Made by a program: the position numbers and the translations under genes
Origin: Ignisphaera sp.
GTDB lineage: Archaea > Thermoproteota > Thermoprotei_A > Sulfolobales > Ignisphaeraceae
Direction of reading: 5' to 3'
DNA length: 53,381 bases
Assembly: GCA_028275825.1 (NCBI GenBank)
Contig: JAPWTX010000008.1
Span: forward strand, 1 to 53,381
Notes under the pieces: model-generated
Database searches by the model: none
The model's input: only the letters and a program-made list of their open reading frames with translations
Told to the model about the DNA's origin: nothing
Part shown: piece after piece, positions 3,256 to 36,944 of the stretch
Layout of the letters: every line of letters starts with the position of its first letter
How positions within the stretch are numbered: the first letter of the stretch is position 1

Positions 3256-3331
3256 GCGGCGGTCGTCTAGCCTGGTCTAGGACGCCGGCCTTCCAAGCCG
3301 GAGATCCCGGGTTCAAATCCCGGCCGCCGCA
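3256..3331 (+). tRNA. tRNA-Gly (anticodon TCC)
   Basis: The sequence folds as a complete cloverleaf. The acceptor stem GCGGCGG pairs with CCGCCGC, the anticodon stem CCGGC/GCCGG encloses the loop CTTCCAA (anticodon TCC, Gly), and the T arm is CCGGG-TTCAAAT-CCCGG. The discriminator is A at 3331 and no CCA is encoded. No intron is present. The high GC content against AT-rich flanks is typical of hyperthermophile tRNAs. Confidence 0.97.
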
Positions 3332-6582: not shown

Positions 6583-6862
6583 AAGGCGAGGCTTTCGATC
6601 GTAAAGTAGAAACAGATTTCAACTTCACTAAAGATGGTTGAAAGATCTATACTTACCTTGTTTAATTGTTCTTGGTGATGAGCGTTAAAACCTTTGAGCT
6701 ACTGGCAATGATAAACAGTTCATTAATAATCCGAGCCCCGAAAGGGGTAAGGGTAATGGGCCGGAGACACGGCCTGGGATTGAACCCCGAAGGGGATGTA
6801 ATCCTAAACCTCTCCGCTCTCACAGGAACCCTAGCCCTTTAGGGTGGGGAGGAGGTCAGTGA
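6572..6862 (+). repeat. Structured repeat A, copy 1 (probable IS200/IS605 right-end/RNA scaffold remnant)
   Basis: This copy matches segments at 22553-22822 (minus strand) and 36636-36896. The core (about 6731-6860) contains CCCCGAAAGGGG, then GGGTAATGGGCC, a GGCCG-GAGACA-CGGCC hairpin, GGGATTGAACCCCGAAGGGG and a 3' end CCCTTTAGGGTGGGGAGG followed by AGGTCAG. The last part resembles the right ends of archaeal tnpB elements. The 5' module (CCCCACCCTAAAAGGCGAGG and following, 6574-6605) is inverted here relative to the other two copies. There is no open frame. GC content is far above the flanks, which in hyperthermophiles suggests structured RNA. Confidence 0.65.
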
Positions 6863-9904: not shown

Positions 9905-10486
9905 ATGTTGAATAAGTTGAGACCTCTTATTGCAAGATACATAAATTTGATCTTACAGAAGATAGATGTGAATCCAAACATCATTACACTAATAGGATTG
10001 GTACTCTCATTTTTTGCAGTGCTGTCATCTGTAATGAAATTTGTTAATATGGTGCCATTATTAATAGTGTTTTCAAGTATTGCAGATGTTCTCGATGGTG
10101 CTATTGCAAGAGCAAAAAATAGAGTTACTCCATGGGGTAGTATATTAGACTCTTTCTGTGATAGGATTGAAGAATTTAATTATCTGCTATCACTAATAAT
10201 ATTAGGTGTGAAGCCTTTGCTAGCTTATTTTGCTATGTTCATATCTTTTTTAATAAGTTACTTGAGAACATTAGGTGAGAAAAGAGGAATTAGAGTTGAA
10301 GGCATAGGTATATTAGAACGTGGAGAAAGAGTTATACTAGTATTCATATCTGCATTAGCAATAGCTTTTAGTGAGGATTATGGAATTAGCATTGCAAATA
10401 TAATAATGCTGTTAATAATATTATTGGGTATTGTAACAATAATTCAAAGGCTTTATCATATATTTAAAGAGTTGAGGAATTTATAG
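9905..10486 (+). CDS. CDP-alcohol phosphatidyltransferase family membrane enzyme
   Basis: The family signature D-x2-D-G-x2-A-R-x8-G-x3-D-x3-D is complete: Asp61, Asp64, Gly65, Ala68, Arg69, Gly78, Asp82 and Asp86. These residues bind the metal and the CDP-activated lipid. The rest forms about five to six hydrophobic helices, and 193 residues is the normal length. In archaea such enzymes join CDP-archaeol to a polar head group, most often inositol-1-phosphate (archaetidylinositol phosphate synthase) or serine; this one resembles the short inositol-phosphate type, but the head group is not settled by the sequence. Its end overlaps the convergent rps26e by 6 bp. Confidence 0.85.
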   Translation: MLNKLRPLIARYINLILQKIDVNPNIITLIGLVLSFFAVLSSVMKFVNMVPLLIVFSSIADVLDGAIARAKNRVTPWGSILDSFCDRIEEFNYLLSLIILGVKPLLAYFAMFISFLISYLRTLGEKRGIRVEGIGILERGERVILVFISALAIAFSEDYGISIANIIMLLIILLGIVTIIQRLYHIFKELRNL

Positions 10487-10765
10487 TTTTGTTACCTTCT
10501 TTCTTTCTTCTTCAGATCTAACCTTTATAATACCATAGAATATTGCACAATTAATGCAGTAACACTTTGTCACAGGGTATCTCATAATTATAGCTCCTTT
10601 CTTTTCCAGCTCAGTAGCTAACTGAGGATCTACTGGAGAGTACATTCGAGTTACACAAACTGCTTTATCTTCAGGTATAAGGGCGCCACAATTATCGCAA
10701 TGTATTCTTGCTACAGATCCCTTATCCCCCTTTCTTCTTCCTCTGTTCTCCCTCTTCTTAGGCAT
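10481..10765 (-). CDS. rps26e: 30S ribosomal protein S26e
   Basis: A 94-residue member of the S26e family, found in eukaryotes and many Crenarchaeota. The basic N-terminus (KKRENRGRRKG) is followed by a zinc site made of IHCDNCG and KCYCINC, with the family segment PEDKAVCVTRMYSP between. The upstream sequence on the minus strand contains GCTTTTAAGC, a probable TATA box about 60 bp before the ATG. It overlaps the convergent phosphatidyltransferase gene by 6 bp. It acts in the small subunit near the mRNA exit and the anti-Shine-Dalgarno region. Confidence 0.95.
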   Translation of the reverse strand: MPKKRENRGRRKGDKGSVARIHCDNCGALIPEDKAVCVTRMYSPVDPQLATELEKKGAIIMRYPVTKCYCINCAIFYGIIKVRSEEERKKVTKL

Positions 10766-10890
10766 TTAAAACATCACCACATCTTCAAACTCTCAGATTA
10801 CTCCTTTCTACACCACCAAGCTTAAAAGCGATAATTAAACCAAGGACATTGACATAACAAGAACTTTGCGAAAAACACATTGCCAACTAG

Positions 10891-12366
10891 TTAATACTTC
10901 TTAGCCAAAGCCACGACAGCCTTTGCATTTTTACCGCAAAAACTACACTTTGCTTCTCTAAGTAGATCTAGATCGATGTTGAGTCTCTTTAATGAGACAT
11001 CCATAACCTCGCCTATCACATCAATTCCTTCAAAACCTTGCAATCTATTATAAATACACCTCTCATCTCCACACCATGGCATTAATACAAATCCTCCTAA
11101 CTCTCTTACTATATTTACAGCCTCATCTATATTCTGAGATAACTTAATACTTGAAGTGAATTCTTTCCATGCTCTATCTATAAGATTCTGCATTATTTCA
11201 CTTAGCATAATACGAATTCTTTCAACTAATTGTTGTAAAGGTATTGTTTCCTTCTTAAGAATATCACGTCTAAATACTGTTACAACATTATTTGAACACT
11301 CGCGCATCCCAATCTCAATTCTTAGTGGAGCTCCTTTTAGCTCCCATTCATAAAACTTTTCAGCAGGTCTCATATCATCCCTTAGATCCAGATGAACTCT
11401 TATACCATTCTCATGAAGTATTTTTGCTATATCACTACTATACCTAATCACAACATCCTTTGTATTCTCTTGATATATTGGTATCACAACAACTTGGTAA
11501 GGCGCAATAATAGGTGGTAAAATAAGACCTTTTTCATCACTATGGAAAGCAATAATTGAGGCTATAGCTCTTTCAGATATGCCATAGCTTGTCTGCCATG
11601 CATAATCTATTGATTCGTCTTTTTTCTGAATCTTAACATCAAATACCTTAGTAAAGGTCTGACCAAGATTATGCACAGTCCCTATTTGAACTGCTTTTCC
11701 ATCTGGAAATATGGTATCAAAGGCTATTGTATATATAGCGCCAGCGAATTTATCCCATTGAGGTCTTCTAGACACAATATATGGTATCCCTAGCGAGTCA
11801 AAGAATTTTCCATAGATGTCAACAGCCTCTTTTATCTGTTCCTCGCTACTTTCAAAACCTTCGTGAACAGTGTGCGCTTCTTTAAATGTTGTTACCTCTC
11901 TTACTCTAACCATAGGCTTTGTCATTTTAGTTTCATATCTAAATATGCTAACAATCTGGTAATACTTTTTAGGAAGCTGCTTGTAACTTTTAATCCATAA
12001 GCTCTCCATATAACTAATTGCTGTTTCGCTTGTGGGTCTTAGTGCTAGTTTCATGTCTAATTCTTCTAGACCTGCTTTGGTAACCCAAAATACCTCTCCT
12101 TCAAAACCTCTGACATGTTCGCTTTCCTTTGCAAATAAGATTTCTGGTATTAGCAATGGTAGCAATATCTCTTCATGTCCTGATTCATCTAAAAGTAGTC
12201 TTATTAATTCAATAACTCTTCTTCTAATTTGAAAACCATATGAAAGCCACACACCCATTCCTTTAACAGGATATCTTCCATAGTCATATATTTCAGCCTC
12301 TGAAATAATCCAACTAAACCATTCACTAAAGCTTTCACCATATTTTTTAGGTCTCGGTGTACTCAT
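10891..12366 (-). CDS. proS: Prolyl-tRNA synthetase (archaeal/eukaryote-like)
   Basis: A class II aminoacyl-tRNA synthetase specific for proline. It shows the N-terminal [19 protein letters not shown] region (motif 1), [20 protein letters not shown], the motif 2 area [20 protein letters not shown], motif 3 IGMRECSNN in the anticodon region, and a C-terminal zinc-binding domain (CGDERC and CSFCG) ending in Tyr, characteristic of the archaeal/eukaryotic form. Length about 491 residues is normal. The frame opens at 12387, but the ATG at 12366 ([11 protein letters not shown]) has GGTGAG about 13 nt upstream and gives the usual N-terminus. trmI ends about 25 bp before this start, so the two genes are probably cotranscribed. 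Confidence 0.95.
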
Positions 12367-12391
12367 ACCTCGTCGCTCACCATACATAGAG

Positions 12392-13198
12392 CTATTGGCT
12401 GCTCTTAATTATTTTTCTGGCGAAAAGTATGAAGCCTGTGTGCCCTACCATATAAGTTGAGGGCCTGATGGCTCTTCTTGACAGCTCTATTTCTCTAAGA
12501 AGTATCTCATAAGCTCTTATATCTATAAACCCTTTGTGCTCATCGATTGCTTCAAAGAGCTTCAATAATTGTTGCATAGATGGGATAAAGAAGGCTATGG
12601 AGGCTGAAGGCTTTAATGCTAAATACAGCGAGTCTAAGGCCTCCCAAGGATCAGGTATGTCAATAATTGCTGCATCTAGCCCCCTCTCGTCAACACCTTT
12701 TCTAATATCACCATACTTTATAGTTACATATTTATCTAGCCCCATCCTTGCTAAATTGCCTTTGGCAATTTCTATAAATTCCTTTCTATTCTCATATCCA
12801 AATACATGGCCTTGGGGTTTGACAAAGTGAGCCAAAACCATTGTAGTATTGCCAGAACCCACTCCTGCTTCTAAAACCCTATACCCAGATTCCAATCCAA
12901 GCATTAGGATTATGAGCCCCAGATCCTTAGGATAAATTACTTGTGTAACTCTTTTAATGCCTTTTTCTAAGTAATCTATGAGTAGGGGTTGCAATATCCA
13001 TGCTTTAACATTTAATGAAGTTGTTACTTGACTTCCTATCTCTTTATTAACAATACTATCAACTGGTATTGTTCCCCTATCTGATGAAATTTTCTTACCT
13101 TGTTCTAATTTAACTAAAAACTTTCTTCTATTATCAAAGTAAATTAGAACTTCTTTACCATACTCTAAAGCATTACTATGGCTCAGAACTGATGTCAT
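12392..13198 (-). CDS. trmI: tRNA (adenine-57/58-N1)-methyltransferase TrmI
   Basis: An AdoMet-dependent methyltransferase of the TrmI family, which makes m1A at positions 57/58 of the tRNA T loop and stabilises tRNAs at high temperature. The N-terminal beta domain (about 1-70) precedes a Rossmann domain with motif [14 protein letters not shown], the acidic residue of [10 protein letters not shown], and motif [16 protein letters not shown], where the Asp-containing motif binds substrate adenine. The protein is 268 residues, normal for the homotetrameric archaeal enzyme. proS follows closely and is probably in the same operon. Confidence 0.93.
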
Positions 13199-13357
13199 AT
13201 ATCATCACATTCTATAATACCAGCCCTCATCATTACCTATCTAAGATATTCTTTTGCAACTTAATACTTTAATGCTCAAACATTTTATTATTAACTGAGA
13301 AAATGTGGTATTGTGTTATAACCTAGCTACTTTATATTTAATTTACGGATTTATTAT

Positions 13358-13570
13358 TTAAATTTCCTTTAGAACCTCGATAACCTTGGATCTAGCATTT
13401 TTCTTCTTAGATTTCTCTAAACCATGCTCAGATTCCCATAACTCCCTCTTTAACAATTCCCTTATAGCAGCTCTTATTACTTCACTTCTTGAAGAGTATC
13501 TCCCCATCCTTACTAATTCATCTATTGCTTCTAAATATGTTTCAGGCATCTTTACTGTAACAATACGCAT
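13358..13570 (-). CDS. Ribbon-helix-helix (CopG-type) transcription regulator
   Basis: A 70-residue protein with an N-terminal ribbon-helix-helix fold: strand [10 protein letters not shown], helix [12 protein letters not shown], then [20 protein letters not shown], which is the typical second helix with the S-R-S-E-V-I-R signature. The C-terminal 20 residues are basic. Such proteins bind DNA as dimers and often repress their own promoter. It is divergently transcribed from rps25e with about 100 bp between the starts, so its operator could lie there, although I see no clear palindrome. Its targets are unknown. Confidence 0.85.
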
Positions 13571-13672
13571 TGCGTATCTACACCACCTACCTATTTACGT
13601 TGATTATAATTTATAAGCAAGAGCACTGATAAACTATTTAAGATATACTTTATATATAGTGAGGTCGAAATA

Positions 13673-13990
13673 ATGGGTACAAAAGGAAAAAAGCCTCTTT
13701 CAACCTTAGAAAAGAGACAGCGAAAACTTGTGAAAGAAGAGACCAAGAAAGTTGCAAAGGAAGAGAAAAAAGAAAGAAAAACTGTGTCTATTACTGGCTT
13801 AGATCCAGCAATGATTACAAGAGTTATTGAGGAAGTTAAAAACACAGGTTTTGCAACACCATTCACACTTTCACAAAAACTTGGAGTAAAATATAGCATA
13901 GCCAGAAAACTGTTAAAGGAATTAGTTAAAAGCAATGACGTTGAATTGGTAGCAAAGAACAGACGTATAATTCTCATCACTAAGAAATGA
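13673..13990 (+). CDS. rps25e: 30S ribosomal protein S25e
   Basis: A 105-residue S25e protein with a lysine-rich N-terminal tail (about 1-45) and a winged-helix core: ITRVIEEVKNTGFATPFTLS, then KLGVKYSIARKLLKELVKSN. A TATA-like CTATTTAAG near 13635-13643 and GAGGT 8 nt before the ATG support this start. The tail is encoded by a run of A-rich codons. S25e lies near the head of the small subunit and is found in Crenarchaeota and eukaryotes. The gene stands alone, divergent from the RHH regulator. Confidence 0.93.
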   Translation: MGTKGKKPLSTLEKRQRKLVKEETKKVAKEEKKERKTVSITGLDPAMITRVIEEVKNTGFATPFTLSQKLGVKYSIARKLLKELVKSNDVELVAKNRRIILITKK

Positions 13991-14330
13991 TCTATCAATT
14001 CAGCGATACAGAAGTTCTACAAAACATTTATCCCATAACCGTAGCTAAAACAATAATTCCATATGCTAGGAGCTTCATAACATAATTTTCCATCAATGTA
14101 AGCATAAATATCCATAGATTAGGAGCGACATGGATTTCAACGAGGCAATAACCTATAAACAGCTATAATTAGCCCGTAAGCAACCTTTTCACTCTGAAGC
14201 CTTCTGCATTTGATCTAGTGAATGAACTCAATGAATGAAATGTTGTTATAATTTTAGTTTAGATGCCATGAGCAAATCACATTAAAATTTTTATGACTAG
14301 ATAACAACCATGAAATATTTGGATTTTATC
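13991..14330. other. Gene-free region
   Basis: AT-rich sequence of 340 bases with no gene, no C/D box pair and no clear repeat. It lies between the converging rps25e and the nitrilase-fold gene. Confidence 0.5.
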
Positions 14331-15140
14331 TTAGTGTAATAGTTTTTTCAAGGTCTTTAGAAGCTTTTTTCTTTCATTTGTGATAATTGAATTGCTACGT
14401 TGCTTTGGGTTTACATTCAATACTATTATTCTCTCATCTACTTTATCGACTCTCTCTATTTCATCTCCTTCCTCATCTATTACAATAGTTGGTATTACTG
14501 CTAATATTTCCTGCTTATACATATAAATACCTCCCACCATTATGGCAACATTTTTGCTTTCAACTGTTCTCGCCTTTGCGATTATCTGCTGTTTTGTAAT
14601 ATCGTTCCCAATTCTAGGGAAAAATATAGTTACATTAGGATTTAGAATTGATAGTATAAGGGCAATTTCTGGATAAAACATGTCATCAGCTATGTAAATC
14701 CCTATACCCAAATTATCTAAATCTATGTAAGGGATTTCTTTATGTCCACTAACTCTTCCTCCGGTCATGACTTGCCTTATAACCCTTTTTACTTCAGATC
14801 CTGATATAAATGTTGAGGATCTGTAGAGTTTAGATCCTCTACGCTCTAGTATAGGACCTGCTAAAAGATCTGCTCCATACATTCTACTTATATTGATTAA
14901 CCCATCTGTAAAAGGACCTGGTATTGTTTCTCCACTAATTTTAATACCCTTTCTAGCTATCTCTTCATATGCTGCAATTCCATTTATCATTTGTGGCAAA
15001 ACTATCATTCTTACACGTTCTTCGTAATGCAAAACCTTTTTTATGGCATCTGAAATTCTGTCCATATTCTTCTTCTTCGCATTGAATTCTACAAATGTGT
15101 GCAACACAGCAATTCTTACAGCATTTTCATTTATATGCAT
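14331..15140 (-). CDS. Nitrilase-fold protein lacking the Glu-Lys-Cys triad
   Basis: The 269-residue sequence follows the carbon-nitrogen hydrolase fold along its length, but all three catalytic positions are changed. The Glu of the first motif is Gln50 (VLPQMINGIAAY), the Lys is Gln123 (RVIRQVMTGG) and the nucleophilic Cys is Ala151 (GIYIADDMFYPEIA, normally CYDxRFPE). The flanking residues of each motif are kept, so the fold is probably intact while amidase or nitrilase activity is unlikely. Its start codon lies 10 bp inside the end of the reverse gyrase gene, which suggests coupled translation and perhaps a related role. It may be a binding or structural protein; its ligand is unknown. Confidence 0.8.
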   Translation of the reverse strand: MHINENAVRIAVLHTFVEFNAKKKNMDRISDAIKKVLHYEERVRMIVLPQMINGIAAYEEIARKGIKISGETIPGPFTDGLINISRMYGADLLAGPILERRGSKLYRSSTFISGSEVKRVIRQVMTGGRVSGHKEIPYIDLDNLGIGIYIADDMFYPEIALILSILNPNVTIFFPRIGNDITKQQIIAKARTVESKNVAIMVGGIYMYKQEILAVIPTIVIDEEGDEIERVDKVDERIIVLNVNPKQRSNSIITNERKKLLKTLKKLLH

Positions 15141-18100
15141 ACTGCATTCACTATGCTGCTAGTATGTATTAAGGGCAATATGTTTTTGCATATCTCTTTA
15201 AGAAGCTCCTCAACAACCTCTCTATAGTCAGCTTTTTCGCTTTCTATCTGCTCCATTTTTTTGAGTAATTCTGTTGTCCGCGAAATTGTAACCATATTCG
15301 CTATTGCTTCAGAATATTTAGAAACGTTACTTAGAATTGATTCAATAGTTTTTCTGAAATGCTGCACTTCAACTTCACCAGCTATAAAACTGTATTTCTT
15401 TAAGTACTTCTCCACAACATCTGAAATATCATAACGCTCTTTTTCATTAGGAAATTTACTCCCTGCTAAAAGCATGTATATTAGTATTCCGGTAATAGAG
15501 GGTATTAGATATTGCATTTTCTTACCAATTGAATATACATATCTCCTCTTCTGTATTGTTTCAATTATTTTTGCATATGTGCTTGGCCTCCCTATTTCAA
15601 CAGCTTTCATCCATTTAATTACATCTCCTTGTGTTGGCAACTTCACATCACTAATCTCAGCAGCCTTAATACTTGTTGGTTTTAGTACTACTTCATGCTT
15701 AGGCAGCGTTACTATTTGGATAGGTGAGTAAATTAAGATGAAGCCAGGCTCTATAACATTTACTGCAACATCTATATTCCCCTTCCACAAGGTAATATTA
15801 CTATTTTCACCCTTGTACACTACTTCTACACTATATAGCACTTTCTCTACTATTGCAGGTCTCATCTGACTTGCTATAAATCTCCTAAATATTAAGTCAT
15901 ATAGTTTGAAATGCTGAGGTGTTAGCCGTATAGGAATTTCTATAACACCCTCTGCTATAAGCTCCCTCAACTCAACAACATCTATGGGTCTTGTTGGTCT
16001 TATAGCTTCATGAGCTCCTCCTTCACCCCACATCCTTGGTGTAAAATAATTGCTAACATTATCATTAAATACTTTTGTGAGGTACTCTCTTGCTACACCT
16101 ATTCCTGTCGATGAAATTCTAGTGCTATCAGTCCTATGGTATGTTATGAGACCTAATTCAAATAGCTCTTGTGCTATTCTCATGGCTTCTACAGAGTTTA
16201 ACAATAATACTCTTTGAGCCTCTGACAACATTTCGTCTGTTGTGAACGGTGGTGATGGATATAAAGAATCTGTGTATGATTTTAATGGTTTAAATATGAT
16301 ATCAATATGCTGAGGTCTCACTCTCTTTAGACCATGTTTTTCTATCTCTTCTTCTGGTATCTCAAAAGTTAATGCACCTAACTTAACAATTTTACTTCTT
16401 CTTAATGTATGAATTCTAGCTAAAGCTAACTCTATTATTTTTCCTAACACTGGGGTTTGAACTCTGCCAGCGCTATACCTTCTATCCAATTTCTCACGTC
16501 CACTTACTTCAGCATAACGTTGCGTCACATATTCTGAAAGTGCAAAACCTAGCCATCGATCTTCAATTCTTCTAGCCAGCTGAGCTTTTACAAGATGTAT
16601 ATTTATGTCTCTAAGATTTTCAAGTGCAGTCAAAATAGCCTTTCTTGTCACTTCATGGAATTCTGCTCTCTTAATATATTTAGCATAGGGGGCTAAGGCC
16701 ACTGCTATATCATAGCCTATTTTTTCACCTTCAGCATCAGGATCTGTAGCTATGATAACCTCATCTACTTCTATAGCTAGGCGTTGTAAAGCCTCAACAA
16801 TATCTTTAGAGGATTTAAAATGTGAGGAACCACATATAGGGCACTCATCTCCTTTCACAAACTGGGTACCACAATTTAAGCATCTTTTGATAAAGTCATA
16901 GCGAGGTACAAACCATGGAATGCCATTATACTTCCGTTTCTCAACACCATATATAGAGTCTCGTGAAAGCTCCTCTTCAACAAGTTCAAAGACGTGCCCA
17001 CCAGATGCCGTTATAAGCAGGTGTATTTTACCTATGTTTACCTCATAGACTCTAAGAATGCCATAATCTCTTACTGAAGGTCTTCCAAAAAATGAGGCTA
17101 TGGTCCTAGCCTTGTTGGGTGATTCGACAATGAATAGTGCAGTCTTTATAAGTTCCTCCCTCCTTTTCACAATATCCTCAGGTACTGTGCCAGACTTCAG
17201 CACCTTTATGATCTCTCTATCCCTATCAATATTCCTCAATTCCTGTTCCAATGCAACTTCATGAAGATTGTAAAACTTGAAATCATCAACATAAAATCTA
17301 AGCCTTTTTTCTAATCCTTTCAAAAGTCTAGCATCGTCAACTATAACTATAGATAAGCCCCTAGTTATACCCCCTATATAAAGTCTTGAAGTCCTGCCAC
17401 TCGCTTGAATATATGTAGGTGCGTCTGGTATTAACATGTACGGCTGACCGTTTTCCTCGTATATGACCAGAGTCTCAACACTCTTTAATTTATCAATTAT
17501 ATCGCTTCTCTGTATCATGCTAAAGATGTAGTTGCGAATCTTTATCAAAGTTCTCGCTACATCCTCATCAATTTCATAACCTTCTTCAAGAGCCTTAACC
17601 AAGTTCTTTAATTTTGCTAATGAAACTCTTCTAGCTATTCTTCTTAGCAAAGCAATTAAGTTCAAAATTTCTTGCTTTTCTTTATCCTCAACAACCTCAA
17701 TCAACACTGACAATAATCTAAGCAATGTAGTTGGATTGTACTCTATTTTTGTAAGTGATATCTTGTGCCTTGGTACACCAAGAAATATCGCATATCTTAT
17801 TATTTCTGGTAAATCAATTCCTCTAACAAGAAGACCATAATACGTCGCTACACCAATCACAGCTTGTAGCCTACCCCTCATAAATTCCTGCAATGCCTCA
17901 CTTCGCTTACTTATAACAACATCTGTTGCTATACCTCTATTTCTTAACTCCTGTGCTATTCTCTGGGCTTCTGCAACTCCTTTATCAATAGGTACGAATA
18001 TTAGCCCTCCAAATCCAAGATCCTTCACAAGGTTACTTAATAACTCTACTACCTGCTTTTCATCGACATGAACATATGTGTCAAGAACATTTCTATATAT

Positions 18101-19141
18101 CTCTACACCTGCCCCTATAATGAACCCAAGGAGCTCTCTAAACAATTTGATTCGGCGTCCTCTTGCCTTGCCTGTTGCAGAACTAACAACAAGTATCCCG
18201 GCATTTGCTCTTTTCTCGGCAAGCTTCTTTTGGTATTCGTTAAACATCTCTGTTATGGGCATGCCCTCTTCTTTACAATATTCGCTATAACCCCTTTCTC
18301 TTACACCTTCACATCTTGTAAGTCTAAGTCTTAAACCTGCTAACTTATATCCTAGCTGCATATCTTCTTCAGAGAATCCCATTAGGAGTAGTATGTATTC
18401 TATTGCTTTACTTCCTTTCATTATAGCATCGACATCATCAGCAAAAACAAAGTTTATTTTAACGCCTTTGTCAATTAAAGGCTTAAAAGTATCTATAAAG
18501 TTCCTCTGCAGATAGTTCGATGTTGTAATCAATATATCAAATTTCCCTTCCTTAATGCCATTTTCTAATTCCAGCCTTTTCTTAGCAGACATTTTAGAAT
18601 GAATCGCTATAACCTCTACAACTATCCCAGCTCTGTTCATATATTCCAAAAGCTTTTCATAGTAATGGCTAACAAGAATAGATGTGGGTACAACTATGTA
18701 TACCTTTCTATTATATTTGTACGATAAGAAAAGCGCTGTTATTAATCCAAAAGTTGTTTTTCCTACCCCTGTAGGAGCTATCATAGCAAAGCTTTGATTT
18801 TGAGCTATTCTATATGCCCAACTTATCTGTAAATTCCATGGATACCCCCCAACACACTTGCTAAAGAATTCAACGAATTCCTCAACAAATTTTTCTATTT
18901 CCACAAGCTGATTTAATCTATGTGATGGTTTTTGCACATAATTAGCTAGTTCCCTAAATGTAGATATCTTCACTAATGAATGCCTTTGCATACATTTCTC
19001 ACAAGCATTCTTGTTCAATGCCCTAACATCGTCTATAGGCCCCCCACAGTTGATACACAACCCCATATACTTTGCTAAGGGCAGTGTCATATCACTGACA
19101 TAAGCATTTCCTCCAATAACAGCATTGCTCTGCACTTCCAT
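15131..19141 (-). CDS. rgy: Reverse gyrase
   Basis: The hallmark hyperthermophile enzyme that introduces positive supercoils, a fusion of an SF2 helicase and a type IA topoisomerase. From the ATG at 19141 (1336 residues) I see an N-terminal zinc finger (CINCGG...CEKC, about 27-50), Walker A APTGVGKTT (about 118), the DDVDAI motif (about 235), the second zinc finger (CLNCG and CPICG, about 755-770), Toprim DPDAEGE (about 797) and the active tyrosine in LITYHRTDSTRIS (about 999). The frame is open to a GTG at 19162, but GGTG lies 7 nt before the ATG at 19141. It is somewhat longer than many family members, without an intein motif. Both zinc fingers are complete. Confidence 0.97.
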   Translation of the reverse strand: MEVQSNAVIGGNAYVSDMTLPLAKYMGLCINCGGPIDDVRALNKNACEKCMQRHSLVKISTFRELANYVQKPSHRLNQLVEIEKFVEEFVEFFSKCVGGYPWNLQISWAYRIAQNQSFAMIAPTGVGKTTFGLITALFLSYKYNRKVYIVVPTSILVSHYYEKLLEYMNRAGIVVEVIAIHSKMSAKKRLELENGIKEGKFDILITTSNYLQRNFIDTFKPLIDKGVKINFVFADDVDAIMKGSKAIEYILLLMGFSEEDMQLGYKLAGLRLRLTRCEGVRERGYSEYCKEEGMPITEMFNEYQKKLAEKRANAGILVVSSATGKARGRRIKLFRELLGFIIGAGVEIYRNVLDTYVHVDEKQVVELLSNLVKDLGFGGLIFVPIDKGVAEAQRIAQELRNRGIATDVVISKRSEALQEFMRGRLQAVIGVATYYGLLVRGIDLPEIIRYAIFLGVPRHKISLTKIEYNPTTLLRLLSVLIEVVEDKEKQEILNLIALLRRIARRVSLAKLKNLVKALEEGYEIDEDVARTLIKIRNYIFSMIQRSDIIDKLKSVETLVIYEENGQPYMLIPDAPTYIQASGRTSRLYIGGITRGLSIVIVDDARLLKGLEKRLRFYVDDFKFYNLHEVALEQELRNIDRDREIIKVLKSGTVPEDIVKRREELIKTALFIVESPNKARTIASFFGRPSVRDYGILRVYEVNIGKIHLLITASGGHVFELVEEELSRDSIYGVEKRKYNGIPWFVPRYDFIKRCLNCGTQFVKGDECPICGSSHFKSSKDIVEALQRLAIEVDEVIIATDPDAEGEKIGYDIAVALAPYAKYIKRAEFHEVTRKAILTALENLRDINIHLVKAQLARRIEDRWLGFALSEYVTQRYAEVSGREKLDRRYSAGRVQTPVLGKIIELALARIHTLRRSKIVKLGALTFEIPEEEIEKHGLKRVRPQHIDIIFKPLKSYTDSLYPSPPFTTDEMLSEAQRVLLLNSVEAMRIAQELFELGLITYHRTDSTRISSTGIGVAREYLTKVFNDNVSNYFTPRMWGEGGAHEAIRPTRPIDVVELRELIAEGVIEIPIRLTPQHFKLYDLIFRRFIASQMRPAIVEKVLYSVEVVYKGENSNITLWKGNIDVAVNVIEPGFILIYSPIQIVTLPKHEVVLKPTSIKAAEISDVKLPTQGDVIKWMKAVEIGRPSTYAKIIETIQKRRYVYSIGKKMQYLIPSITGILIYMLLAGSKFPNEKERYDISDVVEKYLKKYSFIAGEVEVQHFRKTIESILSNVSKYSEAIANMVTISRTTELLKKMEQIESEKADYREVVEELLKEICKNILPLIHTSSIVNAVCI

Positions 19142-19164
19142 AACATAGCACCAGCATTCCACAT

Positions 19165-19203
19165 TATAACATTGTAGTAAACTACAAAACAGATATATAA
19201 CTT
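19165..19203 (-). promoter_or_regulatory. Reverse gyrase promoter with palindromic site
   Basis: On the minus strand TTATATATCT (19191-19200) is a strong TATA box, placing the transcription start near 19170. Between them lies TTGTAGT-AA-ACTACAA (19172-19187 on the plus strand), perfect 7-bp arms around 2 bp. A protein bound there would overlap the start-site side of the promoter, so the palindrome may be an operator. Confidence 0.6.
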
Positions 19204-19272
19204 GTTAAAAAGGTATTTTCAATGTTATTAATTTCTCAATAGAAAGCCATGGCCTAGAGAATTTGTTGCGAT

Positions 19273-19331
19273 AAGGATCAGCGAAGAGAAGTGTCATCAC
19301 CGCTCAAGAGACCGTCATATCATCATACTCA
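19273..19331 (-). ncRNA. C/D box sRNA (2'-O-methylation guide)
   Basis: Read on the minus strand, all four boxes are present with archaeal spacing: box C ATGATGA (19326-19320), a 12-nt guide TATGACGGTCTC, box D' TTGA (19307-19304), a 3-nt spacer, box C' GTGATGA (19300-19294), a 12-nt guide CACTTCTCTTCG and box D CTGA (19281-19278). Only D' deviates from consensus, by one base. Predicted targets are GAGACCGUCAUA and CGAAGAGAAGUG; the GACCGUC part of the first may fall in 23S rRNA. It sits head to head with the next sRNA. Confidence 0.85.
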
Positions 19332-19375
19332 CAAAAGAATAAATAGCTTAAGAGAGTTTATTAAATGTTAAGGCC

Positions 19376-19432
19376 CTACAATGATGAAGCTCACAATCTG
19401 ACAAAGTGATGACACCTGTCTCAGCTGATCAA
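19376..19432 (+). ncRNA. C/D box sRNA (2'-O-methylation guide)
   Basis: All boxes match consensus: C ATGATGA (19381-19387), guide AGCTCACAAT, D' CTGA (19398-19401), 4-nt spacer, C' GTGATGA (19406-19412), 12-nt guide CACCTGTCTCAG and D CTGA (19425-19428). The D guide would pair with CUGAGACAGGUG. Its UGAGACAGGU core resembles a conserved large-subunit rRNA segment upstream of the sarcin-ricin loop, and a 16S segment near E. coli 1040-1050 is an alternative. The target is inferred from memory and unverified. Confidence 0.87.
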
Positions 19433-19509
19433 ATCACCAACTCTGAAGTGCAATCACCTTCTATATAGAAGGATTAAGATTTTAGAATGAGGCTATACCA
19501 CAACTTCCA

Positions 19510-19740
19510 ACTAGTTTAGCAGCTTGATTTCCCAAACAAGGTTTCTCTGTTTGTTACCTCACCCTTTTAGGGCCAGAACCACAGCTTCACAGAATATCAT
19601 CACCTAAAGTTCTAATCTTTCTCTATCTCAAATAGTGGGGGTCTTGCCAAGACAGGGTTTGAGAACGCATTTCCCCGCCTTGGGGATCCAATCCCAGGCT
19701 GTTATGGGTTTGAAGTGATTTGTGATTAGCCGTAAATATT
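19510..19740 (-). repeat. Degenerate copy of structured repeat A
   Basis: On the minus strand CAGCCTGGGATTGGATCCCC and AAGGCGGGG...CTCAAACC match the core of repeat A, and TTAGGTGATGAT matches its 5' part in the copy at 22553-22822. The order of segments is rearranged. The plus strand also carries CCTCACCCTTTTAGGGCC, a right-end-like hairpin. It has no coding potential. Confidence 0.45.
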
Positions 19741-19750
19741 TTTACACTAA

Positions 19751-20010
19751 GTGATTCTCAGGGGGTTCAGCTCTTATATAGATTCATATTGCTTTATGGT
19801 CATAGCCTCATCTCTATTCCCCTGCACCGCTCCTTGGGTCTGCATCCGCCTTAGGGGCGTTCAGGGCCACCCCAGGGACCCCACACCTTGGGTTATTGCC
19901 GCCCTTGGGGAGAGTCCTTGCAGGCTCTTCACCCCTCACAGGGAATCTCATGAAAATGTGTAATAGTGTCAAACCTTATAAACCTGATGAAACTCGAAAC
20001 AGCTGCGAAA
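19751..20010 (-). other. GC-rich structured module with its own TATA box, copy 1
   Basis: The segment is much richer in GC than the surroundings. On the minus strand AGGTTTATAAGG (about 19974-19985) is a TATA box; about 25-40 nt downstream lies the small hairpin CCCTGTGAGGG, followed by about 180 nt of GC-rich sequence with many short stems. The left edge carries GAGCTGAACCCCC, shared with 22858-22872. A related module with the same TATA context lies at 36945-37260. Open frames here are proline-rich and look accidental. I infer a non-coding transcript or element-derived RNA. Confidence 0.45.
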
Positions 20011-20129
20011 GGCGAGTGGTGAACGCTAGGTCTTTGCTCGTTACCTTATCCTGATTAAGACTTGGAGTAAAGTGCAATATATATGACCAGGAGCATACAG
20101 AAGAATGCAAAGATTTTTATTATTTACTA

Positions 20130-20265
20130 TGAGTGATCTTGTTATTTAGAGGTTTGGGCTCTATAGACCACTGTGGGGTCATGGGTAACTGTCGAGTCCA
20201 ACGCCACGAGGCTTCCATTTGAGTCTCTATTTCACCGCAGCGTGGATCATCCGAGAAGTTATAGT
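20130..20265 (-). pseudogene. tnpB: tnpB 3'-end remnant
   Basis: On the minus strand the segment reads NGSLVALDSTVTHD, matching DGSLVALGSTGAHE at the C-terminus of the tnpB remnant at 3453-3990. Just upstream, GGATGATCC followed by sequence like the RDVIGAINIGLKHLN region is recognisable but frameshifted. It is a short fragment with no upstream half. Confidence 0.65.
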
Positions 20266-20390
20266 GAGTATAGAGCTGTTTACAACTATCTAAACTCATC
20301 ATCAGTCCTGCAACAACCTGATGCAAATCTAAGACTGCATCACTACGTATTGTGGTGTCCATTCTCTTTGGTGGTTAGATGCATCATACG

Positions 20391-20399
20391 CTTTATAAG
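20391..20399 (+). promoter_or_regulatory. TATA box of the 20424-21678 gene pair
   Basis: CTTTATAAG at 20391-20399 lies about 29 bp before the ATG at 20424, predicting a nearly leaderless transcript. GGTG at 20416-20419 also precedes the ATG. This independent promoter argues that the pair is expressed and is not part of the surrounding decayed elements. Confidence 0.6.
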
Positions 20400-20423
20400 T
20401 TTTCTGAATTTTAAGGGTGTTAG

Positions 20424-20714
20424 ATGGGTAAACCTCGGAAAGTGTATCGACAAGGAGATCTCCTACTCGTAGAAGAGGAGGGTGTAGATCTAAGGTATGC
20501 TATGAAAGAGGGTGAAGTTTTGGAGATAGTTTCTGAAAATGGGAATACCCATAGATTAAAGAGCTCTGTCTATACTATCCATGGTCGTCGATATGTTGTT
20601 GTTGAGAGCCCCTCGATTTTAACACATCCACAGCATCCAGAGCTTGTTATAGAGCCTGGTATTTATAGAGTTGAGTTTGTTAGAGATTATGCTCTGAATA
20701 GATCTATTGATTAG
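20424..20714 (+). CDS. Small beta-rich protein of a phage/plasmid-type conserved family, function unknown
   Basis: A 96-residue protein. It follows a pattern I recall from a small, widespread bacterial family of unknown function: RQGDLLLVEEEG near the N-terminus, then GE...NTHRL, then RYVVVESPSILTHPQHPELV, PGIYRVEFVRDYA. The histidines in NTHRL and LTHPQHPE are at the conserved positions and could bind a metal. In bacteria this small protein is often encoded beside a larger DUF6745-type protein; here a 313-residue gene follows after 22 bp. The family assignment is from memory and should be tested by profile search. It has no signal peptide and no transmembrane segment. Its promoter is clear, but its role is not. 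Confidence 0.7.
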   Translation: MGKPRKVYRQGDLLLVEEEGVDLRYAMKEGEVLEIVSENGNTHRLKSSVYTIHGRRYVVVESPSILTHPQHPELVIEPGIYRVEFVRDYALNRSID

Positions 20715-20736
20715 CATAGCTATGCTGTGTTAAGAT

Positions 20737-21678
20737 ATGTTTTGCCACGTAGGTTTAGGTAGAGCCTATAGAAGATCATATGAATTTTTTCTATCTGATG
20801 TAATTACAAGTAGTGGTGCTAAGAAGAGATTCTATAATATATTTAGAGTTGAAGGTTTCCTTGGATACCCTCTAAGGGCTCTCGTTGAGAAATTCAAAGA
20901 CAGTTCTATACACATGTATAAGTATGGTGGAAGACAGTACTACATATTTCCTGAGAAATTCTACTCGTTGTTTATATCTATATCCAAGCTTATATACACT
21001 TTGGATAAGTATTATAGGAAAGATGTTGAGAAAATTTTCAATCATATCGATAGAGTTATAAATTTGTGTAGAGATGTAGATCAATGTGTAAATGCGTTAC
21101 TAAAAGAGGTATCCACTGTCGAGACATTATGCATTAAGAGAGTTATGAGGGGTAGGAGAGGTTTAACTACAAGATTTGAGAGAGGCATGGAGAGGTGTAG
21201 AGATGTTGTAGAGAGATTCTTTCCAGATCTACTCAACCCTTATATCTATAGATATGAAGGTTTTGAAGAGCTTGAGGAATTTATGAGGAGGTTCTTTGGC
21301 GACAGAGTTGCTAGAAGCTATAGAAGATTTGCAGAGATCCATAGCCCTATACTTGTAGCTAGGGATGGGATTATATTACTGACTGAGAATAGACAACCTC
21401 TAGACAGCTTCTCTATATATGTTGATGACTGCTCGGTAACGAGTAGCTATGCAATTGTGAAAATAGTTGGCGTAGAAATGCTGAATGGCTATGTGAATAG
21501 AGTTAAATGGGTTGCCTTGCTTGGGATAGATCTTTACACTAAACAGCTATTCCTACACTATGTCTCACCAACACTTATTCTACGTAGAGCAGAGCTATGC
21601 AGATTATGGGTTCTAGGACTTGTAGATGATTTCGGTAAACCATTGTATGAAGATGATTTAACTTTGATAGAGGTCTAG
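20737..21678 (+). CDS. Uncharacterised 313-residue protein paired with the small beta protein
   Basis: I do not recognise this protein with certainty. The N-terminal two thirds are helical and rich in Arg, Tyr and Phe, with cysteines scattered between residues 110 and 160. The C-terminal third (about 205-313) looks beta-rich: SPILVARDGIILLTENRQPL, WVALLGIDLYTKQLFLHYVS, then PTLILRRAELCRLWVLGL. The pattern D-x2-T-x3-FL...P...RA...GL resembles, from memory, the C-terminal end of bacterial DUF6745 proteins, whose genes neighbour homologues of the preceding small protein. That would make the pair an archaeal version of a conserved two-gene module. The ATG at 20737 has no clear ribosome-binding site; translation is probably coupled to the upstream gene. 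Confidence 0.6.
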   Translation: MFCHVGLGRAYRRSYEFFLSDVITSSGAKKRFYNIFRVEGFLGYPLRALVEKFKDSSIHMYKYGGRQYYIFPEKFYSLFISISKLIYTLDKYYRKDVEKIFNHIDRVINLCRDVDQCVNALLKEVSTVETLCIKRVMRGRRGLTTRFERGMERCRDVVERFFPDLLNPYIYRYEGFEELEEFMRRFFGDRVARSYRRFAEIHSPILVARDGIILLTENRQPLDSFSIYVDDCSVTSSYAIVKIVGVEMLNGYVNRVKWVALLGIDLYTKQLFLHYVSPTLILRRAELCRLWVLGLVDDFGKPLYEDDLTLIEV

Positions 21679-22102
21679 CTACACCTCAAGCAGTTCTCAA
21701 TCGCTTATAAATCTACAGTACCATCTATCGAATTGCGTAGGTGTTACTATATGTAGTTCTATGGAAACCCCTAGATAGTCATTTCCTTCATTTTAGGTTT
21801 TTCAAGGCCTCATCTAGGGCTTCTACTTCACCCACAGGGGTTTTTGTTCATCTCTTTGATCTTGCATCTATTATATTCTGGAGATTGTTAAGAAATATTC
21901 CAAAAAGTCTGGATCAAGGTTTTTGCGCGAAGCTCTAAGCATCTAAAGCTTTATGAAATTTTAGGGAACTGTGTTAAGGAAAGATTATGAGATGATTGTA
22001 ACAATTTACATGATGTGAACATGAATGGATGTGGGAAACCTATGGATCTTTGAAAGGGGTCCTCACCCTAAATGGTGGGAGAAGGTTAGATGATTCTATG
22101 AA
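21679..22102. other. Gene-free region with a right-end-like hairpin
   Basis: No gene is supported. At 22061-22089 CCTCACCCTAAATGGTGGGA followed by GAAGGTTAG resembles the 3' end of repeat A (CCCTTTAGGGTGGGGAGG...) and could be another worn IS200/IS605 right end. About 21760-21900 on the minus strand reads KTPVGEVEALDEALKNLK followed by a stop, perhaps the end of a lost gene. Confidence 0.4.
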
Positions 22103-22163
22103 TTCCTCAGTGATCGAGGGCTTCTTCATATTAATCGTCAAAACCCCATTCTCATCATTCTAA
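22103..22163 (-). ncRNA. Probable C/D box sRNA
   Basis: On the minus strand: box C ATGATGA (22158-22152), 10-nt guide GAATGGGGTT, box D' TTGA (22141-22138), 8-nt spacer, box C' ATGAAGA (22129-22123, one mismatch), 12-nt guide AGCCCTCGATCA and box D CTGA (22110-22107). A TATA-like CATATAAACT lies about 25 nt upstream of box C. The internal boxes are imperfect, as is common in archaea. Predicted targets: AACCCCAUUC and UGAUCGAGGGCU. Confidence 0.6.
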
Positions 22164-22217
22164 GCTATACAGTTTATATGATATTACAGAGTAAATTAAT
22201 TTTGTTGGTGAAGCTAA

Positions 22218-22505
22218 ATGGCTTTGGAATTGAGTAAAAAGTCTATTCCACCGCAAATAGCTATTTTAGTAATCATAGCTAGTCATAACAACATTACCTT
22301 AAGGCAACTCTTCGAATTAATAAAACACCAGGAACACAATGATATTGTGAATTATTTGAGTGTTGATGAGCTATTTAAGGATCTAAACGTACTGCAATTA
22401 CTAGGTCTTGTTGAAGAGAATGATGGCAGGTACACTATAACGGAAAGAGGTAGACTAGTTATAGAAAAAATTTTGAAGAATTACAAGAACTCTGTTCATC
22501 AATAA
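22218..22505 (+). CDS. Winged helix-turn-helix regulator
   Basis: A 95-residue protein with a predicted winged helix: QIAILVIIASHNNITLRQLF, a second helix region NYLSVDELFKDLNVLQLLG and a wing ending in GRYTITERGRLVIEKIL. The last motif (Y-x-I-T-x-x-G-R) is typical of PadR/ArsR-like and other small archaeal winged-helix proteins. GGTG lies 8 nt before the ATG, and GTTTATATG at about 22172-22180 can act as TATA box on this strand. It has no partner gene, and its neighbours are mobile-element remnants, so its targets cannot be guessed. Confidence 0.75.
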   Translation: MALELSKKSIPPQIAILVIIASHNNITLRQLFELIKHQEHNDIVNYLSVDELFKDLNVLQLLGLVEENDGRYTITERGRLVIEKILKNYKNSVHQ

Positions 22506-22552
22506 CGCTCCATGAACATTAATGCAGTCAGTATGCAACAATGCCAAAGATG

Positions 22553-22822
22553 CTGACTTCCTCCCCACCCTGAAGGGCTAGAGTTCCTGGTGGTGCGGGG
22601 AAGTTTGAGGCTACATCCCCCTTCGGGGTTCAATCCCGGGCCTAGTCTCTGGCCCATTACCCCTATCCCGATTGGAGCTCGGGGCTATGGGTATTCTAGC
22701 CATCATCACCTAAGCCTCACAGGATCTGAACACTCATCACCAAGATTAATTGAAATGAAGAGTATTCATAAGCTTTTCCATTCATCCCCACCCTAAATGC
22801 GAGGCTTTCGGTTGTAAAATGC
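22553..22822 (-). repeat. Structured repeat A, copy 2 (most complete)
   Basis: On the minus strand the order is ACCGAAAGCCTCGC, TTTAGGGTGGGGATGAATGG, CTTGGTGATGAG, TTAGGTGATGATGG, then CCCCGAGC...GGGATAGGGG, TAATGGGCCAGAGACTAGGC, GGGATTGAACCCCGAAGGGG and the 3' end CCCTTCAGGGTGGGGAGG. The same modules occur at 6572-6862 and 36636-36896. The CCCC...GGGG and GGCC...GGCC stems persist despite loop changes, which suggests a selected RNA fold at some stage. Two C-box-like GTGATGA motifs are present but no matching D boxes. Confidence 0.65.
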
Positions 22823-28797: not shown

Positions 28798-30543
28798 ATG
28801 AATGTTGGTAATAATATGAAGAGCGTCTACACTATTTTAATAGGCATTGTTGTTGGTCTATTTATAAGCTTTGCAAATAGCTATTCTTATGCAATATCTG
28901 GCTACACCACATCAGAAATTTCTTTAATATACATACCATTAGTAATCCTAACGATATTTAAGTTGTTAAAGCTAAATTATGATGGTCAAGATTTACTATA
29001 CTCAACAGCAGTAGCTATAGGAGTCGATATCACGACAACTCTAACAAGTGGAATGTATATAACATATGGTTTCCTTGGCTATGTTTCTAATAGACTTAGC
29101 CTATTTGGATTTAATATATCTATACCACCCCAGCTTTTCAGTAACAAAAGATTTTTCTTTGTAGATGTAGTAGCGATGCCAACATACATTACCTTAGCTG
29201 TGGCATCTCTAGGGGGGTTATTCATAGCATTTGCATTAAGAAGTCATTTCTTTGACAAGGAAAGGTTGAGATATCCTATAGGTACGGTATGCGCCATAGT
29301 TGTGCAAGCGCTTAAAAATGTTTTGATAAAAAGGAAATTCCTTGCAATATTTTTTATAGCGGGTTTTGCACTACAAATGTTTTACTTTATAAACCAAATG
29401 GCATTAGATTTAACGCCAGCAGCATCAATGTTCATTCCTGGTACTTCGCTTGCATTGGCATTTGTACCACTTGTATTTGCTCTATTTCTACTTCTACCCC
29501 TAGGTGTTTTGAGGATGTTGTTTACAGGATCTTTCTTAATGTATTTAGTCTTTATCCCAATGGCTATTATACTATTTAAAATCCCTATAATACCTGCACA
29601 AAGTTATGATGATATGCTGTTCAGTATATCACCAATTGTTCTTAGTTACAATGTTGGCTTTGTAATAACATTCCTGCTATTCTATATCATAAAATATCTT
29701 AAGCAGCTCTTACTGAGCTTAAAGGTTGCAATAGAATTTACTATTGAGAGATTTATGCTATTAGTTGGAATAACATTTTTAGCATTTCTCGGGCTTACAG
29801 CATTAATGCTTACTCATCTAAATAATTTTAGCCTCATGCTCATCATAATGCTAGTTTTGTTTCTTCACTTCATATTAATTATAGGTAACATCAGAAATGT
29901 GGGGGAAACAGGCACGGGTTCACAAGCTCTCTACCCCCTAGTGACTATGTCAATGTATGTAGCAGGGGTGCGCAATCCTTTAACATATGCAGTTTTGGAT
30001 CCTTATACAGGAATTCCAATGCCACAGACAGTGGCTGCATCTGTGATGAACTTACTTCGATATGCTAGATTTAGCAAAGGTAATAACATTAGAGTGATCA
30101 AGTATTTTAGTATTGGGGTTGTAGTGGGAAGTATTGCTACTTATCTATATGGGAACATACTTCTCTCTGTTTATGGAGTTAATTCGCCACAGATGCCATT
30201 AACAAGGTGGATACCTACAGTTGTTTGGATGGCAGCTATATACAATGGAAAACTTACTATGGCATCATTATACGTGGTTGTTTTTTCACTACTCTTCGCA
30301 ATACCACTCATATTCTTGTCTCATCTACTAGGTTTTCCACTATTTCCATTTTTAGTTGGCATAACACTCACACCTGATATAGGGTTTCAAGCATTGCTAG
30401 CATACTTTATAAAGAACTTGATTGTACGCTTTGGATCAGCATTGCACGAAAGGCTAATCATTAGCGTTGCATTTTTCTTACTTGGAGCAGCACTCGCAAT
30501 TATAGTAAATACTATACTTAATGCATTAGGGTTACCTTTATGA
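28798..30543 (+). CDS. Multi-spanning membrane protein, OPT-transporter-like
   Basis: A 581-residue protein with about 14-16 hydrophobic helices and few long loops. Several stretches resemble prokaryotic OPT (oligopeptide/siderophore transporter) proteins: RLRYPIGTVCAIVVQAL after the first third, GTGSQALYPLVTMSMYVAGV, then PMPQTVAASVMNLLRYARF and the late PLTRWIPTVVWMAAIYNGK. The overall arrangement fits a half-size OPT protein. It starts a four-gene operon: its stop overlaps the next ATG (ATGA), and the last gene is an ABC ATPase. OPT proteins normally work without an ATPase, so this combination is odd. The OPT assignment is moderate; the membrane nature is certain. Confidence 0.6.
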   Translation: MNVGNNMKSVYTILIGIVVGLFISFANSYSYAISGYTTSEISLIYIPLVILTIFKLLKLNYDGQDLLYSTAVAIGVDITTTLTSGMYITYGFLGYVSNRLSLFGFNISIPPQLFSNKRFFFVDVVAMPTYITLAVASLGGLFIAFALRSHFFDKERLRYPIGTVCAIVVQALKNVLIKRKFLAIFFIAGFALQMFYFINQMALDLTPAASMFIPGTSLALAFVPLVFALFLLLPLGVLRMLFTGSFLMYLVFIPMAIILFKIPIIPAQSYDDMLFSISPIVLSYNVGFVITFLLFYIIKYLKQLLLSLKVAIEFTIERFMLLVGITFLAFLGLTALMLTHLNNFSLMLIIMLVLFLHFILIIGNIRNVGETGTGSQALYPLVTMSMYVAGVRNPLTYAVLDPYTGIPMPQTVAASVMNLLRYARFSKGNNIRVIKYFSIGVVVGSIATYLYGNILLSVYGVNSPQMPLTRWIPTVVWMAAIYNGKLTMASLYVVVFSLLFAIPLIFLSHLLGFPLFPFLVGITLTPDIGFQALLAYFIKNLIVRFGSALHERLIISVAFFLLGAALAIIVNTILNALGLPL

Positions 30544-36522: not shown

Positions 36523-36635
36523 CTTAATTCTACAAAAATCCTCAGTTAATTTCCTACTAACGGCGTTTATAAGTCTCTGCAAAACTCTTGCATCTCCATA
36601 TTAGCAACAATGTAACTACCTTGATGCTGATTTAC

Positions 36636-36896
36636 AACTGAAAGCCTCTCGCTCTTTAGAGTGGGGTTGAATGAAAAACCTTATGAGTTTTCTCTATTTT
36701 GATTGCTCTTGGTGATGAATGTTGAATTCTCTGGGCCATTGGCAATGATCAACAACTTATCCATAACCCCAAGTACAATGGATAGGGGTAATGGGTCGGA
36801 GACCCGGCCCGGGATTAAATCCCAGAAAAGGGGATGTAATCCCAAACCTCCCACTCTAGCAGGAGCCCTTGTACTTTAGGATGAGGAGGAGGTTAG
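36636..36896 (+). repeat. Structured repeat A, copy 3
   Basis: The copy runs from ACAACTGAAAGCCTCTCGCT to GATGAGGAGGAGGTTAG and has the same module order as copy 2: TCTTTAGAGTGGGG, CTCTTGGTGATGAA, CCCC...GGATAGGGG, TAATGGGTCGGAGACCCGG, CCGGGATTAAATCCC, AAAAGGGGATGTAATCCC and a 3' right-end-like tail. The GGTCG/CGGCC stem shows a T-G wobble in place of the C-G of copy 1, keeping the pairing. The CCCC...GGGG stem has a completely different loop from copy 1. Confidence 0.65.
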
Positions 36897-36944
36897 CAAA
36901 AGCACTTACAGTTACTCACAATAGCTATAACTAATACAGAGCTT

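Follow-up and report, generated by a model that had tools for sequence, protein, structure and literature searches.

A mobile two-gene cassette of Ignisphaera pairs a homologue of a small phage protein family with a partner whose C-terminus may resemble DUF6745

Introduction

What do two short, adjacent genes in an Ignisphaera genome encode, and are they a settled part of the chromosome or a unit that moves between genomes? The genes lie at positions 20424–21678 of a 53,381-nt stretch of Ignisphaera sp. DNA (contig JAPWTX010000008.1 of assembly GCA_028275825.1, forward strand), which we call the window. A first-pass annotation, made from the sequence alone, had described them as an accessory module of uncertain function.

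Results

The gene pair and its promoter

Protein A (96 aa) is encoded at 20424–20714 and protein B (313 aa) at 20737–21678, both on the + strand and separated by an intergenic gap of 22 bp. Both open reading frames lie where the first-pass annotation had placed them, as do the motifs it had quoted for A (RQGDLLLV, NTHRL, LTHPQHPE and PGIYRV...RDYA). To the left, the pair is flanked by a reverse gyrase gene (15131–19162, − strand; named from its sequence and size), and to the right by a small winged-helix-like gene (22218–22505, + strand; Pfam scan). The GC and GC3 contents of A and B are like those of the adjacent genes. Between the two genes, a perfect 14-bp palindrome, AGCATAGCTATGCT, spans 20713–20726; it is not kept in a second Ignisphaera genome that carries the pair (G001).

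Upstream of A, a TATA-like box, CTTTATAAG, was read by eye at 20391–20399 (+ strand), ∼25–30 nt 5′ of the start codon. It would represent a leaderless-type archaeal promoter. An A/T-rich, TATA-like box with the same spacing was seen by eye at all seven Ignisphaera loci, and in the window it also coincides with the left boundary of the stretch in common with G001 (see below), in line with the earlier proposal that the pair has its own promoter.

Comparison of the window with G001 yielded a dN/dS ratio of 0.154 for A (dS 0.49) and one of 0.180 for B (dS 0.68), which indicates that both are genuine genes evolving under purifying selection. That the two reading frames are spurious is next to inconceivable: we found no point in favour of this idea, it is refuted by the dN/dS ratios, and the pair recurs elsewhere with motifs conserved across domains of life.

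Mobility of the cassette

By blastn of window positions 20000–22300 against the G001 locus (G001:C28:82000-99000), the DNA common to both genomes was delimited to 20392–21699 (+ strand), with 82% identity and no meaningful match in the flanks. Its left edge is the TATA-like box, its right edge lies 21 bp past B, and the G001 copy is located at an unrelated site. Between the two genomes, protein A shows 85% and protein B 79% identity, as against 55% for reverse gyrase and 46% for the product of the gene at 23866, the two core genes used for this contrast. Because the pair is far more alike than these core proteins, and because sharing stops at the cassette edges, the promoter and the two genes, ∼1.3 kb in all, are a recently transferred unit.

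The neighbours of the pair differ among the window genome, G001, G003, G006 and G010, and G004 and G005 carry it at one common site. In both G006 and G007, reverse gyrase directly adjoins the winged-helix gene with no pair between them, so that the window site is occupied where its G006 and G007 equivalents are empty; the G006 pair is located elsewhere. The differing sites, the occupied and empty states of the window site and the restriction of shared DNA to the cassette all agree with the horizontally moving module that had been proposed.

The mobile-element debris that had been noted around the pair was also recovered, as upstream context outside the module (no strand assigned). A dispersed repeat of ∼250 bp at 19762–20013 (∼252 bp) has >20 other copies in the genome, the full-length ones being 82–93% identical, and a second dispersed family of ∼100 bp at 20180–20282 is also represented in G000, G001 and G002 (about 78–86% identity). 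These two families within the upstream 1.2 kb could have supplied homology for recombination. An unsystematic reading turned up neither a transposase nor an integrase belonging to the cassette, nor terminal repeats around it. The sRNAs that had been placed around the pair were not found, the single Rfam match being a tRNA at 3256.

Other features of the surroundings were noted in passing. Relatives of the 19762–20013 repeat, which has no evident coding function, occur in G001, G002, G003, G005 and G020. A third repeated element is present three times in the window (22551–22815, 36634–36898 and 6731–6859; 74–82% identity) and has no Rfam match. The block from 9905 to the winged-helix gene at 22218 (9905–22505), with the cassette inside, is inverted relative to G006 and, judged by gene order, also relative to G002, G004 and G007.

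Distribution in archaea

Seven of the 11 genomes of the genus, the window genome included, carry A and B together, in the order A–B and on the same strand; the four without a detected pair include one that is merely 75% complete. The two genes adjoin at all seven loci, so the adjacency that the first-pass annotation had expected elsewhere does recur. Within Ignisphaera, the homologues diverge down to ∼40% (A) and 33% (B) identity with the motifs kept. At single-sequence sensitivity, neither gene was found in the other sampled genera of the order. A class-wide profile search of 229 genomes identified one more order-mate (G187), and a broader profile applied to 398 genomes of the phylum added G102, whose locus and the Caldarchaeum locus described below are probably one locus, judged by match size and position. 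Across these samples, the pair is thus rare and patchy among archaea. Searches of Thermoproteota genomes with PF20530 (DUF6745) and phrog_27831 returned zero matches and are uninformative because the controls likewise gave none.

Protein A belongs to a family found in archaea, bacteria and phages

The first-pass annotation had linked A to a small bacterial/phage family, and profile searches identified that family: A matched phrog_27831 (hmmscan E 5e-5), and a profile of seven archaeal A sequences matched one of 13 phage proteins across 93 columns (hhalign E 6.1e-19). By these comparisons, A is firmly placed as a homologue of the small phrog_27831-like proteins, in a family that spans archaea, bacteria and phages. 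A is similar to these YRQGD proteins in length and shares with them the terminal Asp and the motif order YRQGD, GxxH, HxxH, PGxY and RE/DY, whereas in the window-type archaeal A the first His of TGHxH is replaced by Asn, and Glu in HEEH by Gln. The Caldarchaeum-type homologue (L041) lacks both the Asp of RQGD and the terminal Asp. No match to archaeal A was obtained in phages and plasmids by direct tblastn, and neither Pfam nor NCBIfam yielded a matching model for A.

Conservation was assessed in 107 sequences, archaea included, which were reduced to 75 non-redundant ones at 70% identity. Residues G11, G40, H43, H68 and H71 of A are kept in 75/75, R9 and D12 in 74/75 and Q10 in 71/75; G79 is also among the conserved residues. 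The last residue, D96 in the window protein, is Asp in all 80 phage homologues and in 74 of the 75 non-redundant sequences. This residue set looks enzyme-like and could form an active site.

AlphaFold2 (AF2) modelled A as an all-beta protein of eight strands (pLDDT 90, pTM 0.80) with a less ordered C-terminal tail (block mean pLDDT 58). With Foldseek, no PDB fold matched below E 0.1, and catalysis therefore cannot be argued from the fold. Weak FABP-like PDB matches (TM about 0.15) were discarded. A cupin identity, considered on account of the HxH pattern, was likewise rejected: there was no cupin Pfam match and no PDB match at E ≤ 0.001, and cupins were absent from the best 50 PDB fold matches listed. 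PDB sequence searches with the A and B profiles gave nothing meaningful.

A and DUF6745 are neighbours in phages and bacteria

This family had further been said to neighbour DUF6745-type proteins, and phage genomes bear this out. In the 55 phage contigs that extend ≥800 bp past A, DUF6745 was detected downstream of A in 47 and upstream in five, using a profile built from partners already found, so that detection was not blind; several of the phage counts come from one collection (IMG/VR) with related contigs included, and the sets of phage loci partly overlap. The remaining three contigs gave no match, which may reflect contig ends before the conserved part since they extend only 818–1040 bp past A; one clearly ends within repeats. 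All of the first 10 complete partners matched PF20530, as did most bacterial, plasmid and cyanophage partners, and the pairing is also present on bacterial chromosomes, on plasmids and in cyanophage Ma-LMM01. On these counts, the A family and DUF6745 can be described as near-obligate neighbours. One DUF6745 gene, on a Nostoc plasmid, lacks an A gene within 4 kb, so B-type proteins do not strictly depend on A. An Acetobacter hit (H24) was rejected as a DUF6745 member: its similarity to a Deinococcus DUF6745 protein is confined to the LRR-like N-terminus, and its sequence does not look like DUF6745.

In one phage group, a DUF6745-like end (Pfam E 0.017, below cut-off) is continuous with YRQGDVILAK in a single reading frame, and such a fusion suggests that A and its partner are in physical contact. 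It was seen in five near-identical phage contigs (L027:3162-4135), where the next reading frame encodes the remainder of the small protein. The genes surrounding the phage pairs are scattered replication, recombination, HNH, HTH and regulatory genes, among which we noticed no recurrent neighbour. We found no mention of DUF6745 in the literature searched.

Phage DUF6745 genes also contain long 12-bp tandem arrays that encode tetrapeptides such as RDSV/WASV, with 28 copies at L034:4588-4928. Many IMG/VR contigs (many of L081–L160) stop shortly past A, in or near such arrays, which suggests that the arrays break assemblies.

The C-terminal module of B

Archaeal B proteins consist of a lineage-specific N-terminus, a helical middle and a conserved C-terminal module whose last residues are IE[VA]. 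In the alignment of the seven archaeal pairs, a small set, 18 of the 42 invariant residues fall within the last ∼55 residues. This C-terminal module, about the last 60 residues (21490–21678, + strand), resembles the ends of both DUF6745 and the Caldarchaeum-type partner. The AF2 model of Ignisphaera B, built from a four-sequence alignment, is of low confidence (pLDDT 54) and too poor for a fold search.

That B ends like DUF6745 had been claimed at the outset. In a Pfam scan, B had no match to PF20530 at E ≤ 10, hence none above the gathering cut-off, and comparing the profiles of archaeal B and DUF6745 over their full lengths gave no significant match. The C-terminal 75 residues of B matched DUF6745 C-termini with hhalign E 0.0018 (0/150 column shuffles) and a ten-sequence subset with CPSTG-type or otherwise divergent ends with E 0.00094 (0/100 shuffles); against a larger DUF6745 alignment, E was 0.026, with 3/100 shuffles reaching the score. 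These E-values are optimistic because the sequences had already been inspected when the C-terminal cut and the subset were chosen. The similarity of the B C-terminus to DUF6745 is thus suggestive, and homology of the two proteins is likely but not established.

Further resemblances lie in gene order and sequence pattern. Like B, DUF6745 is encoded directly 3′ of the small gene and has an exact, conserved C-terminus (ET/ES/QT in 46/50), and the two share a collinear pattern at the C-terminus, T-x-x-x-[YF]-L-x-x-V-P-P ... W-x-x-G-[LF]. Unlike DUF6745, archaeal B has neither tetrapeptide repeats nor LRRs; its N-terminal region is its own, and its last residues are IE[VA], not E[TS].

A related arrangement occurs in other Thermoproteota: the Caldarchaeum-type pair (L045, L041) comprises an A homologue and, directly after it, a partner of 315–319 aa whose C-terminal part is similar to that of B; this partner differs from B in its apparent N-terminal membrane helices, as read from sequence. 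The B C-terminus matched it with hhalign E 7.5e-5 (0/150 shuffles). The Caldarchaeum-type partner itself gave no clear match to DUF6745 (E 0.03–0.05; 4/150 and 2/100 shuffles). B-type proteins have a C-terminal part in common, and their N-termini range from LRR-like in Deinococcus (read from sequence) and tetrapeptide repeats in phages to apparent membrane helices in Caldarchaeum and, by a low-confidence model, a mainly helical region in Ignisphaera. Pattern matches of archaeal B in viral contigs yielded no relative.

STM4011–STM4015 genes beside bacterial pairs

The pair adjoins genes of the STM4011–STM4015 families in six of the eight plasmid records with A, counts that are not independent because these records are mostly from Deinococcus (three) and Streptomyces (two). 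The cluster flanks the A–DUF6745 pair on Deinococcus, Streptomyces and Methylobacterium plasmids, whereas its genes are absent from the archaeal and phage loci that were read. By Pfam, the members scanned are radical SAM proteins (STM4011/STM4012), a sulfatase, an LRR protein and, with a weak match, an ATP-grasp protein (STM4014). The seventh plasmid record, from D. ficus, has a VWA gene adjacent to the pair and a GSP_synth ATP-grasp gene a few genes further; the eighth, from Nonomuraea, is essentially unannotated, and its A–B pair was read from open reading frames. An archaeal radical-SAM link, via the gene beside the G010 pair, was rejected because that gene occurs in most genomes whether the pair is present or not. 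A single tangential paper, on MoxR/vWA conflict systems, mentions a radical-SAM effector; the text searched does not describe the pair (PMC7159879).

Discussion

Our preferred reading, plausible to us though still tentative, is that A and B are two subunits of one complex in which A carries a metal or ligand site. The complex would be encoded by a 1.3-kb cassette with its own promoter, of which like pairs also reside on chromosomes, plasmids and phages. A would be a small beta barrel whose putative site is formed by H43, H68 and H71 together with the Arg, Gln and Asp of the RQGD hairpin, possibly joined by the invariant C-terminal carboxylate. A would dock on the constant C-terminal module of B, and the variable N-terminal part of B would set the target or location. 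Together, the two would act as a putative metal-dependent enzyme that modifies or hydrolyses its substrate, in an accessory role probably tied to mobile elements. The site is suggested by sequence conservation together with general knowledge of small metalloproteins. Docking of A, and the directing role of B, are suggested by the genomic pairing, the fusion, the constant-C/variable-N architecture and the weak profile match.

A carrier or substrate would offer a different account of A, which would then be no enzyme: its C-terminal Asp would undergo ligation, tagging or some other modification, B would be the recognition subunit, and the bacterial neighbours STM4014 (ATP-grasp-like) and STM4011/STM4012 (radical SAM) would be the modifying enzymes. 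The near-invariance of the terminal Asp and the poorly ordered tail would fit, as would the plasmid neighbours, namely the STM4011–STM4015 genes in six of eight records with their radical-SAM and weak ATP-grasp matches, and the GSP_synth gene near the D. ficus pair. Yet no ATP-grasp or dedicated radical-SAM gene adjoins the pairs of archaea and phages (the radical-SAM gene next to the G010 pair is a common chromosomal one), and conservation of A is strongest in the barrel rather than the tail; we therefore regard this account as unlikely. Rather unlikely, too, is a toxin–antitoxin or abortive-infection-type conflict module, kept for defence or element maintenance. Patchy spread, mobility and presence on phages and plasmids would suit such a module, as would the order of a small gene followed by a large one and the differing N-termini of B, but no PADLOC model matched A or B, no toxin family matched B in the Pfam scan, defence genes were not evident around the archaeal loci when read by eye, and the phage copies lie amid scattered replication, recombination and regulatory genes. 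The sole PADLOC match listed was marginal (E 0.005) and fell in the repeat region of a bacterial partner.

Vertical inheritance would make the pair an ordinary accessory housekeeping pair of Ignisphaera, its apparent mobility being due to genome rearrangement around it. The common site in G004 and G005 and the match of A and B to adjacent genes in GC and GC3 agree with this, but the far higher identity of A and B than of reverse gyrase and the 23866 gene (at dS 0.5–0.7), the sharing of nothing beyond promoter and two genes between the window and G001 sites, and the failure to find the pair in 4 of 11 congeners or in nearly all other Thermoproteota render it quite improbable.

Building on the two-subunit complex, one may go further and see an undescribed, cross-domain cassette system for protein modification or conflict, a reading that we consider doubtful. 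Its parts would be a metal-site barrel with an invariant C-terminal Asp, seated on a partner whose N-terminal targeting regions are interchangeable; it would act alone in phages and archaea, and some bacteria would couple it to a radical-SAM/ATP-grasp pathway.

By pointing out the invariant residues, delimiting a mobile cassette of about 1.3 kb and connecting it with STM4011–STM4015, the analysis turns two uncharacterised families, which form one conserved unit from phages to hyperthermophilic archaea, into one testable complex. The archaeal pair, free of repeats and LRRs, may suit crystallisation.

A possible viral relative of A came from structure comparison. The best viral-model match to A was a 224 aa protein of rudivirus ARV2, ALG96871 (TM 0.62 of query, probability 1.00, E 0.016), to which the BFVD model A0A0N9P6K3 was assigned from length and organism. 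Its C-terminal 90 residues matched the A profile (hhalign E 0.002, 0/100 shuffles), and its C-terminus, TQGKLEIYK...GPGIYLLV...SRD, resembles A, although it has ∼140 extra N-terminal residues. Because the counterparts of H68 and H71 are missing, ALG96871 is a lead only, and homology to A is not established. The protein is encoded at L078:1099-1773, and the product of ARV2 29063–29659 likewise ends with an LPPGIY motif.
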